Made by a program: the position numbers and the translations under genes. Source: Flavobacterium geliluteum (GTDB lineage Bacteria > Bacteroidota > Bacteroidia > Flavobacteriales > Flavobacteriaceae). Taken from it: 64,000 nucleotides of DNA. The notes under the pieces are model-generated. The model worked only from the letters and a program-made list of their open reading frames with translations, did no database searches and was not told the DNA's origin. The stretch covers positions 1 to 64,000 of the forward strand of contig NZ_JAGFBV010000001.1 in NCBI RefSeq assembly GCF_017948595.1, written 5' to 3'. Positions 21,976-48,175 of the stretch are shown here, piece after piece (the first letter of the stretch is position 1; each line of letters begins with the position of its first letter).

Positions 21976-24900
21976 ATGAAATTAACAAAATTACTTATTT
22001 TTTGTATTTCGTCTCTATTGTTTTCTGTTGTCGCAGTAGCACAGGATGTTACGGTAAATGGAATTATAAATGACGAAAGTGGCTTACCCGTCCCTGGGGC
22101 AACAATTTTAATCAAAGGAACAACTAAAGCAACTGCTTCTGACTTCGATGGAAAATTTCAAATAAATGTTCCATCTAATGGTACATTGACAATTAGTTTT
22201 GTAGGATATAATACGATTAATGAAGCTGTAGACGGAAGGACTAAAATTACCTTTCAATTAAGGCCAGAATCTCAAAGCTTAAACGAGGTTGTTGTTGTTG
22301 GATACGGTACACAAAAGAAAAGTGTCGTAACAGGAGCAATTTCTAGTGTAAAAGCAAAAGATTTAGAAAGTTTACCTATCACAAGAATCGAACAATCTTT
22401 ACAAGGAAGGGTTTCAGGGGTTTCTATTGCTGCAAATGCAGGTCAGCCAGGATCGGCTTCTACAATCAGGATTCGTGGTTTTACTACTCTTAATAATAAC
22501 GATCCTTTATGGGTAGTAGACGGTGTAATGATCGACAACGGTGGTATTGGGTACTTGAATCAATCTGATATTGAATCTATCGAGGTGCTAAAAGATGGTG
22601 CTTCGGGAGCAATTTACGGTTCTCGTGCTGCTGCGGGGGTTATCTTGGTAACGACCAAAAAAGGTAAATCAGGAAAGATTTCTGTAAATTATACAGGTTT
22701 TTCAGGAGTATCTCAAGCGGCAAAGAAAATTGATTTGCTTGATGCATCACAGTATGTTACCATCATGAATGAGGCTTACACGAACGGTGGAAGACCGGCG
22801 CCTTATTCTACAACTACTAATTACGGTAAAGGTACTAACTGGCAAGATGCTATTTTTAATAACAATGCACAACGTACTTCTCATGAATTAAGTTTTAGTG
22901 GAGGAAATGATACTTCAACATTCTATATGTCTTTCGGATTATTAGACCAAGAAGGGATCGTAACCTCTGAAATTTCAAATTATACTAGAAAAAACATTCG
23001 TTTAAACTCGACTCATAAATTAGGAAAATATTTTAAAGTTGGTCAGACTTTAGGTTACTCTCATGAAAAAACGATTGGTGTTGGAAACACAAATGATGAA
23101 TTTGGTGGGCCTTTGTCTTCAGCAATTAACTTAGATCCATTGACTCCAATTATCGAGACAAATCCAAATCAACCGATCTATCAAAATAATCCGAATGCTC
23201 TTAAAGACGCAAACGGAAATTACTATGGTATTTCGACAATTGTAACGCAAGAAAATACTAACCCATTGGCATATACACAAACAAGATTGGGTAATAATGA
23301 TTTTGCTGATAATTTTGTTGGTAATGTTTTTGGTGAGGTTGAAATTTTACCAGGTTTAAAATTTAAATCTGCAGCAGGTGGTAAATTAGCGTTTTTTGGT
23401 TCTGATAACTTTACTCCAGTGTTTTTCTTAAACGGAGCTACTAAAAGAGATAAAAATGAATTGTTCAGATCATACAAAAAATCTTTTAGCTGGAACTGGG
23501 AGAATACTTTAAATTATGCTAAGAAATTAGGTGATCATAACTTTAGTGTTTTACTTGGTAAAGGTACATACGTAGACAATATTTCATCTGGTAACGATGT
23601 AACTTATCAAGGGGTGCCTGCAACAACGCATGCTGAAGCTTCTTTTAACGTTGAAGTTCCTATTACAGATAAAATTGCTAATGCGTATAGCTCACAAGCG
23701 TATGAGCACAGAGTAGAGTCTTTGTTTGGAAGATTAAATTACGATTATAAAGAGAAATATATTTTTACCGGAATTATCCGTCGTGACGGTTCTACTAGAT
23801 TTGGACCAAATCATAAATACGGAACTTTCCCTTCTGTATCTGCAGGTTGGGTACCATCTAAAGAAGGATTCTGGGGAGAAAATAATGCGATCACTTCATT
23901 AAAAATTAGAGGAGGTTACGGTGTAACTGGAAATGACTCTTCTCCTGATTTCTTATATATTTCTACTGTTGGAATTAAGAGAAACTATACAATTGGAGGA
24001 ACACCAATTCCGGGACAAAGTCCAAACGCAATTCCTAACCCTGATTTAAAATGGGAAGAAACAAAACAAGCCAATATTGGGTTTGAGATGAGTTTCTTAC
24101 GTGATTTTAACTTAACGGTAGATTTATTCAACAAAAAAACAGATGGTATTATTATGCCAGTTCCTAATCCTGGTTATGTTGGAGCATCAGGAGATTCTTA
24201 TGCTAACTTAGCTAGTATGGAAAATAAAGGTATTGATGTTGAATTAGGGTACCGTAAAAAAATTGGTGCTTTGAATCTTTCGGTTAATGGTAACTTCTCT
24301 TATATCAAAAATGAAATCACTTATCTAGACAAGGGAGTTAATTTTATAGCTGGTGATGAGACCGTACAATCTAGTTCTTACGAAATAAACAGAACACAAG
24401 TAGGTCAAGCTTACAATTCATTCTACGGGTTTAAAACAAATGGTATTTTTCAAACTCAGGCAGAAATTGATTCCTATCAAAATGCTGCAGGAGTAGTAAT
24501 TCAGCCAAATGCTAAACCGGGAGATTTCCGTTGGCAAGATCTAAACGGAGATGGTAAAATTGCAGCAGAAGATAGAACTTTCTTAGGGACTTCATTGCCT
24601 AAATATACTTATGGTCTTACTTTGAACTTAGATTACAAAGGAATTGATTTATTAGTTTTTGGTCAAGGAGCAGGTGGAAATAAAATCTACCAAGGTTTAA
24701 GAAGGTTAGATATCATTAATGCAAATTACCAAACAGAAGTTTTAGGTCGTTGGACAGGACCGGGATCAACAAACAGTTATCCAAGAGTTACTACTGATGA
24801 TACAAACAGAAACTTCAGTAATCCATCAGATTTTAATTTACAGAAAGGTGATTTCTTTAGATTCAAAACGATTCAGGTTGGATATTCTCTTCCATCAGAT

Positions 24901-43117: not shown

Positions 43118-44002
43118 TTACTGTTTTAATAATTCTTTAATTATATCATGCTTAAATTTGCTAAACGGTCTTTTATGATACTCTTCTTCTTTAATTTCAA
43201 TTCCAAAAATCATCCTGCATGCTTCTTCTTCAGACATAGAAAGTCCTGAAAATGTTTTATTCAGTAAAATGTCTAAATAATTGTTTGAATATTTATAACG
43301 AAGATCTAGCAAGTCTTTCAGTTCTTTTTCAGAATGAGCATCGTAAATTTCTTTTGTTTTATTAAATTTTAATGTTTCCTTCGTTTTTATATGTTCTACA
43401 TTTATTTTCATTTTAAAATCATTTAAGGAATGATAGTCATAGCTAAATGTAAATTCATTTTTGTCAAAATAAGGATGATTCATTTTATCTAGGGCTGTTA
43501 ACCAATCAAAACTTTTAGAAGCCCCTTTTATATGATTGCAAGAATGACAACTTGGAATTAAATTATAAAAAGATAATGCTAAAATTGGAAATTCTCCTTT
43601 TGGAAACCAATGATCTAGTTCTGCTCTTGCATTATTGCCTCCAAAGTATAAAGTATAATTTCTGTTGCAATACAAACAGGTATCAATGTTTAATAGGTTT
43701 AAAAATTCTTTGTTTGGAAAACTACCATAACCTGTTTGAATGAAAAAGCTCTTGATTAATTCAATTTGGTGTTTTGAAAATTGTTTCTTTTTATACTCTT
43801 CATGAATTTCAATTAAACGCTCTGGTTTTCCGGTTATCAATTCTAATTTGTGCTTTTCTAAAAAAGTAATGAACTCTTTGCATATATTCTTAATTTTATT
43901 ATTTCTTTTGATATATCCGTTCGAAATTAGAGTTTCAAAAGTGTCTAAAACTTTTTCATGATGAAATTTAACAGCTTCGGATGTTGGATTTATTGTAATC
44001 AT
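43118..44002 (-). CDS. HNH endonuclease, PtuB-like partner of the ATPase
   Basis: 294 residues. The HNH/zinc region is at about 109-160: CLYC, then AELDHWFPKGEFP with the catalytic-type Asp-His, then FYNLIPSCHSCNHIKG. N-terminal ~100 residues and C-terminal ~130 residues are helical and charged, with no recognised domain. Such proteins pair with ABC-type ATPases in the Septu defence system and in related toxin modules. It starts inside the ATPase stop codon (TAATG overlap), which shows tight translational coupling. Very AT-rich, as is its partner. The Septu link is inferred from domain order. Confidence 0.82.
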   Translation of the reverse strand: MITINPTSEAVKFHHEKVLDTFETLISNGYIKRNNKIKNICKEFITFLEKHKLELITGKPERLIEIHEEYKKKQFSKHQIELIKSFFIQTGYGSFPNKEFLNLLNIDTCLYCNRNYTLYFGGNNARAELDHWFPKGEFPILALSFYNLIPSCHSCNHIKGASKSFDWLTALDKMNHPYFDKNEFTFSYDYHSLNDFKMKINVEHIKTKETLKFNKTKEIYDAHSEKELKDLLDLRYKYSNNYLDILLNKTFSGLSMSEEEACRMIFGIEIKEEEYHKRPFSKFKHDIIKELLKQ

Positions 44003-46260
44003 TATATACCAAATTTAGATTTTAAAAAATCAATTTCTTTTCTGGCTAATTCTTTTTGAAAATCTTTGCCTCCTTTTAATTCATCAATCATTTCCGCTAA
44101 TTTCATTTTTAAAATTGGCTCATCAATTAGTTCAATAATTTGTTTGTGATGATTGTACTCATCTTGACTTAGTTGATAAAGTTCCTGAGATTTACTGTCT
44201 TTTTTATAGTTTTCTAAATTAATCCATTTTATCGTATCTTCAATCTTAGCTTTTGCAAAATCTCCCATTAAACCGTTATCGATAAAAAAACTATCTGCTA
44301 ATAAATCGGTAATGTTTGCGCCAAAAGACTTTTTTGGTTTGTTTTCAGTATCAAGAATAACCGTTTTACCATTCTCTTTTTTTAAATAAATAATATTACC
44401 ATTAGGAATGTCTGATAATGTTAAAGGGTCGTGAGTTGTAAATATGATTTGTATTCTCAATCCAATAAATATTTTGGGTAAAATTTTTATTAATGTGTTG
44501 ACAAACATTTTTTTCCATTTAGGATGTAGTCCTAAATCTGCCTCATCTAAGAATAAAATTGCAGGTAAATCAACATTAGTATTTATTTCTTTGTTGTCAT
44601 GTAATAATGAAATAAGATTAAAAATCATTTCTTCACCTGAACTTAAAATAATATTTGGAAAAAAATTAATAAATTGATGATAATCTGATTTAAACAATTT
44701 GGTTAGTTCAAAATAAAATTTTTCGTATAAATCTAAAATAGTTACAGCGGTAGTGAAATTAACTATAACTTTACAATTACCATCTAATATTACATTATCA
44801 TTATCTGCAATTGACTTTTCAAAATTTACAGAGAAATCAATTAATAAATCGAAAGGAAATACTATATCTGCTTTTTTGTTATTTATATCAAGAAAATAAA
44901 AATTGTTTTTAAGTAATTTAAGTATTTCAATAGAACTGTTTATATTTTCTAAATTTTCAAAATCTTCTAAATTTTTAATTTTTGGAAAAATATTGGTTTT
45001 TTCTGGATTAAAAATTAAATCAGTTATATAGCGCATCAATTCAAGAACCAAAAAATCAATTGTTTGCATGTAATTAGATTCATTCGCTGAATATTTTGAT
45101 GTTTTTGAACGAAAAAAATCATTAATCATATCAAATGTTGATAATGTATTTTGAACTTCTGTTTCTAAGATTTCTCTATATTGATAACTAGCATTCTTAA
45201 ATGGATAATGTTTAATAGAATTAGTGGCTACTATGTTACTTTTATGAAATTCTATATTTATTTTTTTAAAAACAGGTAATGAATAGTCATCAAGAATATC
45301 TGTAATTTCTTTATTTGATAACATTTTCATCCATCTTTTTAGTTGAGTATTTTTATAAAATGAAAATGTAAAATCAGAATTATAAAACTTAAATTTCTGA
45401 GAATTTAAATCGTTTAATATTTGACTCATTAAAGATAAATCCAATGAGTTAGCTTGATTTTTATGTATTCTATTATCGCTTAAATAATTTGAAAAATAGA
45501 TAGGAAAACCATAAAACTGAGACTTTTCATTTTTAGCTTTAAAGTTTTTAGAAATGATTTTAAAATCACTTTCTAAATCAAAAAATGAATAATATTTAAT
45601 TTCTTCAGTTTCTTCAATAATAAAAAACACACATTCTTCTTCGCCAGTTCTTACAGGTATTAATTGATTAAATAATTTTGTTAATAAACTAGTTTTACCA
45701 GTTCCATTTTCACCAACAATAGCTGAAACCAATGCGATGTCTTCGCCGAAAAAGTGCTCGATAAAATTTGGATTTGGTTTACAAATTAATTCAACAGAGT
45801 TTTCATCATAAGATTCGATGCAGTAAGTATTCCTGCCACCTAAATTGATTATTTGAGGTTTCTCAAATAAAAATTCGTGATTATGAATATATACAGCTAC
45901 AATTTTTGAGGAATGTCTACTCATATCAAATATGTCATTTTTTAAAAAATCACCAATGTAAGATTGGCTGTTTATTTTATGAATTCCGTATCCAAAAAGG
46001 ATTAATAGTTTGAGATTTTCGAGAGGTCTAAAATCTCTAATAGGATTATTTCTTAAGTCTAGTTCTTTTAAATTTTCAAACTCTTTTACAAAATCAATGT
46101 TCGTTATTTTATTTTCAAATAGATTGAGCGAAATGACTTTGTCATTGTCATCTATTTTGTAAGTATTTCTGTTTTTAAAATGAAAAAAATCATCAATGGT
46201 TGAGAGGTTTAACTCAAATCCTAATGTCTTTTCTAAATTTAAAATACTAATGGGCTTCAT
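44002..46260 (-). CDS. LRR-bearing ABC/OLD-type ATPase, PtuA-like
   Basis: 752 residues. About residues 41-92 look like short leucine-rich repeats (VISLNLFENKITNI, LKELDLRNNPIRDF, LENLKLLILFG). Walker A is GENGTGKTS at 183-191, an ABC-signature-like SSGEE is at about 540-544, Walker B AILFLDEADLGLHP at 567-580, and the H-loop FTTHD at about 607-611. Between them lies a long AT-rich helical insert. This is the architecture of SMC/ABC-like ATPases such as PtuA, with an unusual LRR N-terminus. Together with the overlapping HNH gene it suggests a Septu-like antiphage system that senses phage and triggers nucleic-acid cleavage. Function inferred, not shown. Confidence 0.82.
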   Translation of the reverse strand: MKPISILNLEKTLGFELNLSTIDDFFHFKNRNTYKIDDNDKVISLNLFENKITNIDFVKEFENLKELDLRNNPIRDFRPLENLKLLILFGYGIHKINSQSYIGDFLKNDIFDMSRHSSKIVAVYIHNHEFLFEKPQIINLGGRNTYCIESYDENSVELICKPNPNFIEHFFGEDIALVSAIVGENGTGKTSLLTKLFNQLIPVRTGEEECVFFIIEETEEIKYYSFFDLESDFKIISKNFKAKNEKSQFYGFPIYFSNYLSDNRIHKNQANSLDLSLMSQILNDLNSQKFKFYNSDFTFSFYKNTQLKRWMKMLSNKEITDILDDYSLPVFKKINIEFHKSNIVATNSIKHYPFKNASYQYREILETEVQNTLSTFDMINDFFRSKTSKYSANESNYMQTIDFLVLELMRYITDLIFNPEKTNIFPKIKNLEDFENLENINSSIEILKLLKNNFYFLDINNKKADIVFPFDLLIDFSVNFEKSIADNDNVILDGNCKVIVNFTTAVTILDLYEKFYFELTKLFKSDYHQFINFFPNIILSSGEEMIFNLISLLHDNKEINTNVDLPAILFLDEADLGLHPKWKKMFVNTLIKILPKIFIGLRIQIIFTTHDPLTLSDIPNGNIIYLKKENGKTVILDTENKPKKSFGANITDLLADSFFIDNGLMGDFAKAKIEDTIKWINLENYKKDSKSQELYQLSQDEYNHHKQIIELIDEPILKMKLAEMIDELKGGKDFQKELARKEIDFLKSKFGI

Positions 46261-46384
46261 AATAAAAAGATTTATTCAAATATATAAAAAGCAAGACCTG
46301 TATTTTTATGGATTGCCATAATTTGTAAAATTATTACTAAAAAACAGAGTTTTAAAAATAATTGTCTTTTTTTAAACGCGATGT

Positions 46385-46495
46385 GCGTGAGGGATAGCAG
46401 CAAGCTACCGAAGTAGCGCGGATAGCCCGACAGCCTTTAAGAAATGGCCCAATGAGCGCAAAGTATATTGGGCCGTTTTTTAAAGGTTGGCACGC
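46385..46495. ncRNA. Structured intergenic element, candidate RNA or mobile repeat
   Basis: A nested fold can be drawn by eye. Outer arms GCGTG (46385-46389) and CACGC (46491-46495) close it. Hairpin A is GCTAC-CGAA-GTAGC (46404-46417). Helix B pairs CAGCCTTTAA (46431-46440) with TTAAAGGTTG (46480-46489) and is capped by GGCCCAAT/ATTGGGCC (46446-46474). It lies in the 362-bp gap between the ATPase gene and ahcY and is more GC-rich than its surroundings. I recall similar text in other Flavobacterium intergenic regions, not verified. Strand unknown. Confidence 0.6.
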
Positions 46496-46538
46496 CCGGA
46501 TTATTTTAGATTTTAGATTGATGTATAATTAAAAAACA

Positions 46539-46570
46539 AAACCCGACAGGTTTTAAAATCTGTCGGGTTT
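46539..46570 (-). terminator. Terminator of ahcY
   Basis: An 11-bp perfect stem (AAACCCGACAG at 46539-46549 with its complement at 46560-46570) is followed on the minus strand by T-rich sequence, 52 bp past the ahcY stop. Confidence 0.85.
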
Positions 46571-46622
46571 GATATAGACAATCGAAGAAATCTAAAATCA
46601 GAAATCTTCAATCTAAAATTAT

Positions 46623-47939
46623 TTAGTATCTGTAGTATTCTGGTTTAAATGGACCTTGAACTTCTACACCAATGTACGCAGCTTGATCGTCACGTAAAGT
46701 TTCTAACTCAACGCCTAATTTTGCTAGGTGCAAAGCAGCTACTTTTTCATCTAAATGTTTTGGTAACATGTAAACTTCGTTTTTGTAAGCAGCACTGTTT
46801 TTCCATAGCTCGATTTGAGCCAAAGTTTGGTTGGTAAATGAGTTACTCATTACAAAACTTGGGTGACCTGTAGCACAACCAAGATTTACCAAACGACCTT
46901 CTGCAAGAATGATGATGTCTTTTCCAGCGATAGTATATTTGTCTACTTGTGGTTTGATTTCGATTTTTGATGCACCGTGGTTTTTGTTCAACCAAGCCAT
47001 ATCAATTTCGTTATCAAAGTGTCCGATGTTACAAACAACGGTTTTGTCTTTCATTTGCTCGAAGTGAGAACCTAGAACGATGTCTTTGTTTCCGGTTGTG
47101 GTTACGATAATATCGGCAGTTGCAATAACAGTGTTTAGTTTTTTTACTTCAAAACCGTCCATTGCAGCTTGTAAAGCACAAATTGGGTCGATTTCTGTAA
47201 CAGTTACAATAGAACCTGCACCTCTAAAAGAAGCAGCAGTTCCTTTTCCAACGTCACCGTATCCGCAAACGATTACTCTTTTTCCAGCCAACATTAGGTC
47301 TGTTGCACGACGTACAGCATCTACAGCAGATTCTTTACAACCGTATTTGTTATCAAATTTAGATTTAGTAACCGAGTCATTTACATTAATTGCAGGCATT
47401 GGCAATGTTCCCGCTTTTACTCTTTCGTAAAGTCTGTGAACACCAGTTGTAGTTTCTTCAGACAATCCTTTTATTCCAGGAACCAATTCTGGGAAACGGT
47501 CGATCACCATGTTGGTTAAATCTCCACCATCATCAAGGATCATGTTCAATGGTTTTCTGTCTTCACCAAAGAATAAAGTTTGCTCGATACACCAGTCAAA
47601 CGATTCTTCGTCAAGACCTTTCCAAGCATATACTTGGATACCTGCAGCAGCAATAGCAGCAGCAGCCTGATCTTGTGTAGAGAAAATGTTACAAGAAGAC
47701 CAAGTAACTTCTGCACCAAGAGCGATTAAAGTTTCGATCAAAACTGCAGTCTGGATAGTCATGTGCAAACATCCGGCGATACGAGCACCTGCAAGCGGTT
47801 GTTCGTCTTTATATTCAGCACGAAGTGCCATTAAACCTGGCATTTCAGCTTCAGCTAGTTCAATTTCTTTTCTTCCCCAAGCCGCTAGAGAGATGTCTTT
47901 TACTTTGAAAGCCACATAAGGCGTTGTTGTAGTACTCAT
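46623..47939 (-). CDS. ahcY: Adenosylhomocysteinase
   Basis: 438-residue NAD-dependent enzyme hydrolysing S-adenosylhomocysteine to adenosine and homocysteine, recycling the by-product of SAM-dependent methylation. The ATG at 47939 is preferred over one 12 codons upstream because the protein then begins near the normal N-terminus ([18 protein letters not shown]). Visible: [17 protein letters not shown], the substrate region [19 protein letters not shown]-binding [15 protein letters not shown], and the C-terminal [14 protein letters not shown] -7 promoter box lies 34 bp upstream. Confidence 0.95.
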
Positions 47940-47980: not shown

Positions 47981-48099
47981 CGGAATAGCTTTTTAATTTT
48001 GGCTACTTTCTTTAAGATTTGTGAAATGTTTAATCACTTAATCTTTTGCATCTTAGATAAATATTTGATTGTTGTACTGCTCATATTCAGACTAAGAAG

Positions 48100-48175
48100 C
48101 TAATCCTGCTGTCCGCTGTATCTTTTCCTGGCTAAAGAAGCCAGAAAAAGGATGCCGCTCCCATCAGGGCTAAAA
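48100..48175. repeat. Structured interspersed element
   Basis: Contains a long hairpin at 48122-48150: CTTTT plus CTGGCT pairing with AGCCAG plus AAAAG, one mismatch, 5-nt loop. It is flanked by CCTGCTGTCCGCTG on the left and CCGCTCCCATCAGGGCTAAA on the right. It stands out by GC content in the 308-bp gap 47940-48247, which otherwise shows only the ahcY promoter. Similar text is, in my memory, dispersed in Flavobacterium genomes. Confidence 0.55.

Follow-up and report, generated by a model that had tools for sequence, protein, structure and literature searches.

The window analysed here is a 64,000-nucleotide stretch of the Flavobacterium geliluteum genome, and between a defence-like gene pair and ahcY it holds a short segment that raises a simple question: is it an RNA gene, a terminator or a mobile repeat? 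All of these genes lie on the - strand. Of the pair itself (43118-46260, -), one member is an ATPase whose N-terminal part includes an LRR stretch and the other is HNH-like; PADLOC returned PDC-M62A/B as the best models and PtuA/PtuB as weaker ones, and the HNH match of the second protein is slightly below the Pfam cut-off. A sequence-only reading had pictured an outer helix, a CGAA-capped hairpin and a two-tier helix joined in a junction-like fold, and all of these parts are present. The outer helix P1 pairs GCGTG at 46385-46389 with CACGC at 46491-46495 (+), and the two-tier hairpin P4 spans approximately 46431-46489, with GGCCCAAT/ATTGGGCC at its upper end. The predicted RNA fold of 46385-46495 (+) has -55.5 kcal/mol and a z of -9.0, which none of 200 shuffles equals, against a z of -3.5 for the opposite (-) strand, while folding of 46385-46497 with DNA parameters gives -6.0 (+) and -2.8 (-). 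The GC content also differs from the surroundings, as that reading had remarked (53% vs 35% in the whole window, where 0.6% of stretches of the same length reach this value). Its right end (46495) falls two bases short of the conserved unit, which ends at 46497 (CACGCCC) and is followed by about seven bases that are conserved more weakly. Low-complexity filler of the TTTAGATT type occupies 46498-46520 of the window and is also seen in the right flanks of the elements in L010, L011, L017 and L028.

Two sets of loci were used for comparison. Alignment A1, the source of model R1, comprises 35 of 36 loci, the truncated copy in L006 being left out; the second set was chosen by a pattern spanning the core and P3 only. 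The features referred to below are as follows.

46385..46497 (+): whole element, long-P4 form, a predicted three-way junction (fold, covariation and an R1 match of 132.6 bits at 46383-46499, a score to be read with the window sequence being one of the 35 used to build R1)
46385..46389 (+): P1, 5′ strand (GCGTG), from fold and covariation, with 5/5 P1 pairs changed on both sides in the second set
46391..46401 (+): core, 5′ half GGGATAGCAGC (P2 GGG and internal loop), A1 columns mostly invariant or nearly so
46404..46417 (+): P3, short hairpin GCTAC-CGAA-GTAGC, from fold and covariation
46418..46430 (+): core, 3′ half GCGGATAGCCCGA (P2 CCC), from A1 conservation and covariation
46431..46489 (+): P4, long hairpin with A-tract and T-tract beside a GC-rich stretch, 17/18 P4 pairs changed on both sides in the second set
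46491..46495 (+): P1, 3′ strand (CACGC), then CC, from fold and covariation
46540..46570 (-): separate hairpin AACCCGACAG...CTGTCGGGTT adjoining ahcY, outside the element, from sequence
48098..48175 (-): Flavo-1 copy of the classical form, related to the element (75.9 bits vs a cut-off of 42)

In A1, 27 of the 35 pairs have changed on both sides, compared with 11.5 in shuffles, and 98.0% of cells pair, a share that falls to 46.2% or less once the partner is slid. R1 matches all 80 stretches of the second set, 79 over their whole length and one truncated at the end of its locus. The second-set alignment has 85 rows, since L309 contributes one more element and four weak echoes on the opposite strand are counted with the 80 stretches. 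Here 26/35 pairs have changed on both sides, with two reservations: fitting this alignment to the model favours the structure, and some records may duplicate first-set genomes. The P1 and P4 counts listed above are the same with or without the four echo rows, and once these echoes are set aside no P2 pair has changed on both sides in the second set. The comparison shows a constant core, predicted to be a three-way junction, and arms that vary freely in sequence yet stay paired.

The sequence-only reading expected near-identical text in other Flavobacterium intergenic regions, and copies were indeed found: BLAST located seven places in the element's own genome, the window element counted, and within the genus 78 of 150 genomes gave a match when five candidates per genome were scored. 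Together with the compensatory changes, also looked for at its suggestion, they support its broad description as a dispersed RNA or mobile repeat. R1 found 23 places in the same genome at E<=0.1 (150 of 1631 candidates scored), namely six full copies, one truncated copy, one half copy, three opposite-strand echoes and 12 shorter relatives that share P1 and the GGG/CCC core with the window element, their P3 being long and their P4 short. The exact core and P3 pattern is present in at least 118 stretches of public genome contigs, and the 80 listed are all titled Flavobacterium but one, titled [Flexibacter]. Under strict filters, relatives of the junction were detected in 19/99 genomes of the order and 21/198 of the phylum, extending to other families, orders and one further class within the phylum. 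Over the classified elements P3 measures 23-116 nt and P4 10-72 nt. Plasmid and phage records gave no match by BLAST at E<=1e-5, nor did viral contigs by the exact pattern. Contigs C19, C21 and C25 of genome G374 carry model matches of about 150 nt lying 480-780 bases from the contig starts, possibly adjoining an assembly-breaking repeat. An origin by chance or assembly artefact, to which we give practically no weight, is refuted by the z of the fold, unequalled among the 200 shuffles, by the genus-wide copies, by the covariation and by the 118 or more pattern stretches in public contigs. The window element is real, repeated, structurally conserved and, as follows, related to a known but unexplained family.

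That family is Flavo-1 (RF01705). The window element lies below every Rfam cut-off, its best overlap being BTnc005, far under the cut-off; the Flavo-1 model (gathering cut-off 42 bits) gives no match to it at E<=10 and none on the elements of eight loci at E<=5. The kinship appears in the core. A consensus comparison of A1 with Flavo-1 copies places the conserved internal loop of Flavo-1, GATNGNAGYGG / GCGGANAGC, in the window element, and classical copies read AGCCC-GATNG-N-AGYGG...GCGGATAGC-GGG, that is, the same internal loop with the P2 pairs reversed. The core GGGATAGNAG...GCGGATAGCCC inside a GCGTG/CACGC helix is common to the window element and the 12 shorter relatives of the same genome, and at 6 of these 12 places the Flavo-1 cut-off is passed, which indicates continuity via intermediates. 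Flavo-1 itself has 123 matches in this genome, 109 of them above the cut-off (150 of 1180 candidates scored). Two strong copies 300 bp apart (L115 and L116, G000:C11:24680-24759 and 24377-24456) lie inside an ORF predicted by a simple caller. Judged by core sequence and predicted fold, the window element is a long-armed (long-P4) variant of Flavo-1 which the Flavo-1 model misses, and which is undescribed relative to literature searches and Rfam 15; a published MITE of Cardinium is a different element.

The copies are not placed at random with respect to genes. In the first 35 loci the gene on the 3′ side is antisense to the element in 31. Nine of the 80 second-set loci were too close to the slice ends to be assigned, and the other 71 show the arrangements (E, element) -E- in 32, +E- in 29, +E+ in 6 and -E+ in 4. 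The 3′-side gene is thus antisense in 61/71 loci, or in 28 of 35 gene groups when loci are collapsed by similarity of the right-hand protein (one-sided binomial, 2.5e-4). The largest of these 35 groups have 10 and 7 members, and the commonest Pfam families among the 61 antisense genes are ExbD (10 proteins) and CorA (7). Where the flanking genes converge, the right one is the closer in 25/29 loci and 10/13 groups. The stop codon of the antisense gene is within 20 nt in 37/61 loci and 12/28 groups; in the other 16 groups it is more than 20 nt away, sometimes beyond another hairpin. Close junctions, read in gene sense, run from the stop codon through a few mostly A/T bases into approximately T[TCA][TA]GGGCGTG. 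ORFs came from a simple script, not a trained gene finder, and the same caller put the right-hand gene antisense in 36/40 long-P4 forms, 18/29 other GGG/CCC forms and 12/20 classical Flavo-1 copies (the classical control comes from the window's genome, with 23 of 30 loci located, three of them inside predicted ORFs). Given this contrast, the orientation bias is not an artefact of the gene caller. Across these loci the element shows a preferred antisense orientation, with its predicted P4 end near the gene 3′ end.

The layout of P4 would be terminator-like on both strands, and the element could be a module at gene ends that is not mobile at all, spread by descent and recombination, with P4 selected as the terminator of the right-hand gene. 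Its position just after stop codons (37/61 within 20 nt) and the retention of orthologous positions across species suit such a module, which would however have no need of the conserved P1-P2-P3 core, and the 71 loci involve as many as 35 right-hand gene groups. At the window locus, the separate hairpin at 46540-46570 is likely the ahcY terminator. AACCCGA is found close to the ahcY 3′ end in 19/30 loci, whether the element is present or absent. A simple terminator scan (loops of 3-8) flagged nothing in 46200-46700, and the same scan also missed this hairpin.

Which strand carries the preserved fold can be read from the mismatches. Among 119 long P4 arms, isolated stem mismatches on the element's strand are G-T/T-G in 72 cases and A-C/C-A in 8; after dropping arms more than 70% alike the counts are 21 vs 1 (30 arms), and at 60% they are 8 vs 1 (12 arms). 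A cruder count with loops included points in the same direction (G-T 109, A-C 35; 59 arms). Of the 119 arms, 57 have their longest T run on the + strand and 3 on the - strand, the rest being equal. The mismatch bias and the T runs thus mark the + strand, opposite to the transcript of the adjoining gene, as the strand with the preserved fold, a pairing preference that runs against a terminator selected for that gene. Selection on the T-tract could explain part of the wobble asymmetry; T-G vs C-A mismatches, which are less easily due to such selection, number 13 vs 4, a small sample. Wobble is the same for RNA and single-stranded DNA and does not tell them apart. In long-P3 arms no wobble asymmetry was seen (6 vs 5; 32 arms).

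The strong covariation and the tolerance of G-T on one strand only are what selection on RNA gives, so a structured RNA (sRNA or 3′-UTR element) transcribed from the + strand, as Rfam types Flavo-1, has to be weighed; a protein or ligand would be bound by the core and the transcript would stop at P4, in keeping with the T runs that are longer on + (57 vs 3 of 119 arms). Several points stand in its way, and we consider it rather unlikely. In 61/71 loci the + strand runs antisense to the gene it adjoins, and a left gene in the + direction occurs in 35/71 only; promoter-like conservation is lacking from the 20 bases immediately left of 73 copies; and a transcript ending at the P4 T-tract would lose the 3′ strand of P1, yet P1 covaries in 5/5 pairs. 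A published remark on Flavo-1 and transcribed regions, within a transcriptome study, also counts against it (PMC9723704).

Turnover can be followed at fixed sites compared between species. At the L013 site we examined 30 loci returned from 147 matching genomes, where the query held the element, so that carriers are favoured and their share is not a frequency: 16 have the long-P4 form directly behind the stop codon, 2 have another form and 12 have none. The P4 arms of the 16 carriers fall, by motif and by eye, into four families that are unlike one another and still paired. Mapped on a tree of the neighbouring gene in which 9 of 27 inner branches are open, the site requires at least 10 presence changes and, among carriers, 7 changes of P4 family. 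In L202, a long-P3 Flavo-1-like form replaces the long-P4 form at this site, with position and orientation unchanged. Behind ahcY, the best 30 of 140 matching genomes hold the element in 7 loci, the window's own counted; these were found by pattern within about 420 nt, all have the orientation seen in the window, and the one in L170 is a long-P3 form. This count drops a head-like hit in L162 as chance, adds L154 from its tail and leaves out looser opposite-strand head-like hits in L150, L156 and L166. The loci L239, L258, L274, L279, L297, L303 and L307 share one right-hand gene, and their arms are mostly very different and near-perfectly paired.

At both the L013 and ahcY sites, then, close relatives have the same site with and without the element, the mark of a mobile element. 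The comparison establishes several copies per genome and presence or absence at one position among related species, and mobility in the evolutionary sense is well supported by these alignments. The comparison revealed neither a clean empty site nor a target duplication; the flanks of the L013 site are too divergent, so presence and absence could also stem from recombination or deletion. For a non-mobile terminator module, at least 10 presence changes among 30 loci are hard to accommodate, and we regard that reading as improbable.

If the element moves, an enzyme in trans would be expected to move it, and one-strand folding would suit HUH enzymes. The element could be of the REP type, moved by a TnpA_REP (RAYT) of Bacteroidetes subclass 2.6, a special case of the explanation we prefer, with which its probability overlaps. 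Subclass 2.6 belongs to the same phylum, and its general description matches: it is flanked by ‘atypical secondary structures’ that recur at other places of the genome (PMC6006769). The search found no consistent Y1/RAYT neighbour, and no mobilising enzyme was identified among the loci searched. In the element's own genome, no core lies within about 1.5 kb of 10 Y1 transposase and reverse transcriptase loci by pattern; one Flavo-1 match (45.8 bits), missed by that pattern, is about 270 bp from one of three similar IS200 copies, which we judged to be chance. Across nine genomes, core pattern pairs occurred at 0/30 RAYT and 1/30 Y1 loci, a pattern whose sensitivity on positive controls was 27/36 and 14/30. 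R1, which detects more than the pattern, matched 4 of 68 Y1/RAYT loci (221 kb), at 54.5 bits in L206, 27 in L212, 26 in L380 and 17 in L222. Three matches of at least 25.8 bits compare with about one predicted from the density in the window's genome, and Flavo-1 is above its cut-off near 1 of 20 such loci, as its density predicts; there is no clear association. The match in L206 (2578-2714), the sole strong one of the 68, lies some 0.5 kb past a RAYT gene that shares 88% identity with the one in the window's genome.

One strong and two weak R1 matches near 3 of 30 RAYT relatives (L206, L212, L222) can be set to the credit of a RAYT. On the other side, the pattern was found at 0 of these 30 and R1 left 27 without a match (the 30 being the best loci among those of 99 matching genomes), and the two 2.6-like loci inspected in the element's own genome carry a different repeat; movement by this enzyme strikes us as quite improbable. 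Those two loci (L043 and L044; G000:C90 and C112) hold RAYT-like Y1 genes (HIHL, YIHYNP) with decayed tandem remnants, are flanked by CTCGTTGCAAACGAGCACC / GTCGCGTTACAAACGC and have relatives in 99/199 genomes of the genus; they are a candidate subclass 2.6 REPtron. A retron-like and a ribozyme reading were set aside on the architecture; the search of reverse transcriptase loci found no core.

A mobile repeat seems to describe the element better than a conventional RNA gene does, and we lean, modestly, towards a non-autonomous dispersed repeat of the Flavo-1 superfamily with a long arm resembling a terminator. Copies would arise via machinery that acts in trans and strand-specifically, recognising the core as folded on one strand, with single-stranded DNA as the first choice of substrate and an RNA intermediate as the second, and they would be kept where P4, with its two-way-terminator layout, can act as or beside the terminator of the gene. 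More tentatively, one may imagine Flavo-1 as a whole to be a mobile superfamily at the DNA level, in which the folded three-way-junction strand is the substrate of trans-acting machinery, the long-P4 branch integrates antisense behind stop codons, and the arms are rewritten at a given locus yet keep their near-perfect pairing, as though one half served as the template for the other. If mobile, the element would be a recurrent shaper of gene ends across a large environmental genus.

Three known systems invite comparison with such a repeat. Bidirectional intrinsic terminators consist of an A-tract, a GC stem and a T-tract and are found near gene 3′ ends, a layout and position that P4 shares; unlike them, the element has a conserved junction core and P1, and a simple terminator scan does not flag it. 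The REP repeats of TnpA_REP subclass 2.6 are likewise dispersed, hairpin-forming and intergenic in Bacteroidetes, as far as their published outline goes (PMC6006769). The element differs in not lying consistently beside RAYT genes and, by inspection of A1, in having no GT[AG]G at the hairpin foot, a motif that the same outline says subclass 2.6 repeats also lack (PMC6006769).

Flavo-1, the third of these, was described in 2010 (Weinberg et al.; PMC2864571, Table 1). In a 2022 review its entry stands among the most abundant sRNA families with the function left blank (PMC9029176), and the transcriptome study, where it deals with the family, could not place it (PMC9723704). Both forms occur in the same genome and have the core internal loop (GATNGNAGYGG ... 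RCGGANAGC) around hairpin P3, and the intermediates combine P1 and the GGG/CCC P2 of the window element with the long P3 of Flavo-1. The window element differs from classical Flavo-1 in its GGG/CCC rather than CCC/GGG P2, in a short P3 of 5 bp where Flavo-1 has the long CCUUUU...AAAAG hairpin, and in its long P4; the 76-position Flavo-1 model is without the outer helix P1 and the second arm P4, and the gene-end orientation bias was not seen in 20 classical copies of the window's genome. The sequence-only reading could not extend to the kinship with Flavo-1, to where and in which direction copies lie at gene 3′ ends, or to the pairing being strand-specific. Through the long-P4 variant Flavo-1 gains boundaries, an outer helix that covaries and a second arm; it can also be assigned a strand and a place with respect to genes, and there are sites at which related species differ. 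With those features the choice between RNA gene, terminator and mobile repeat becomes testable.
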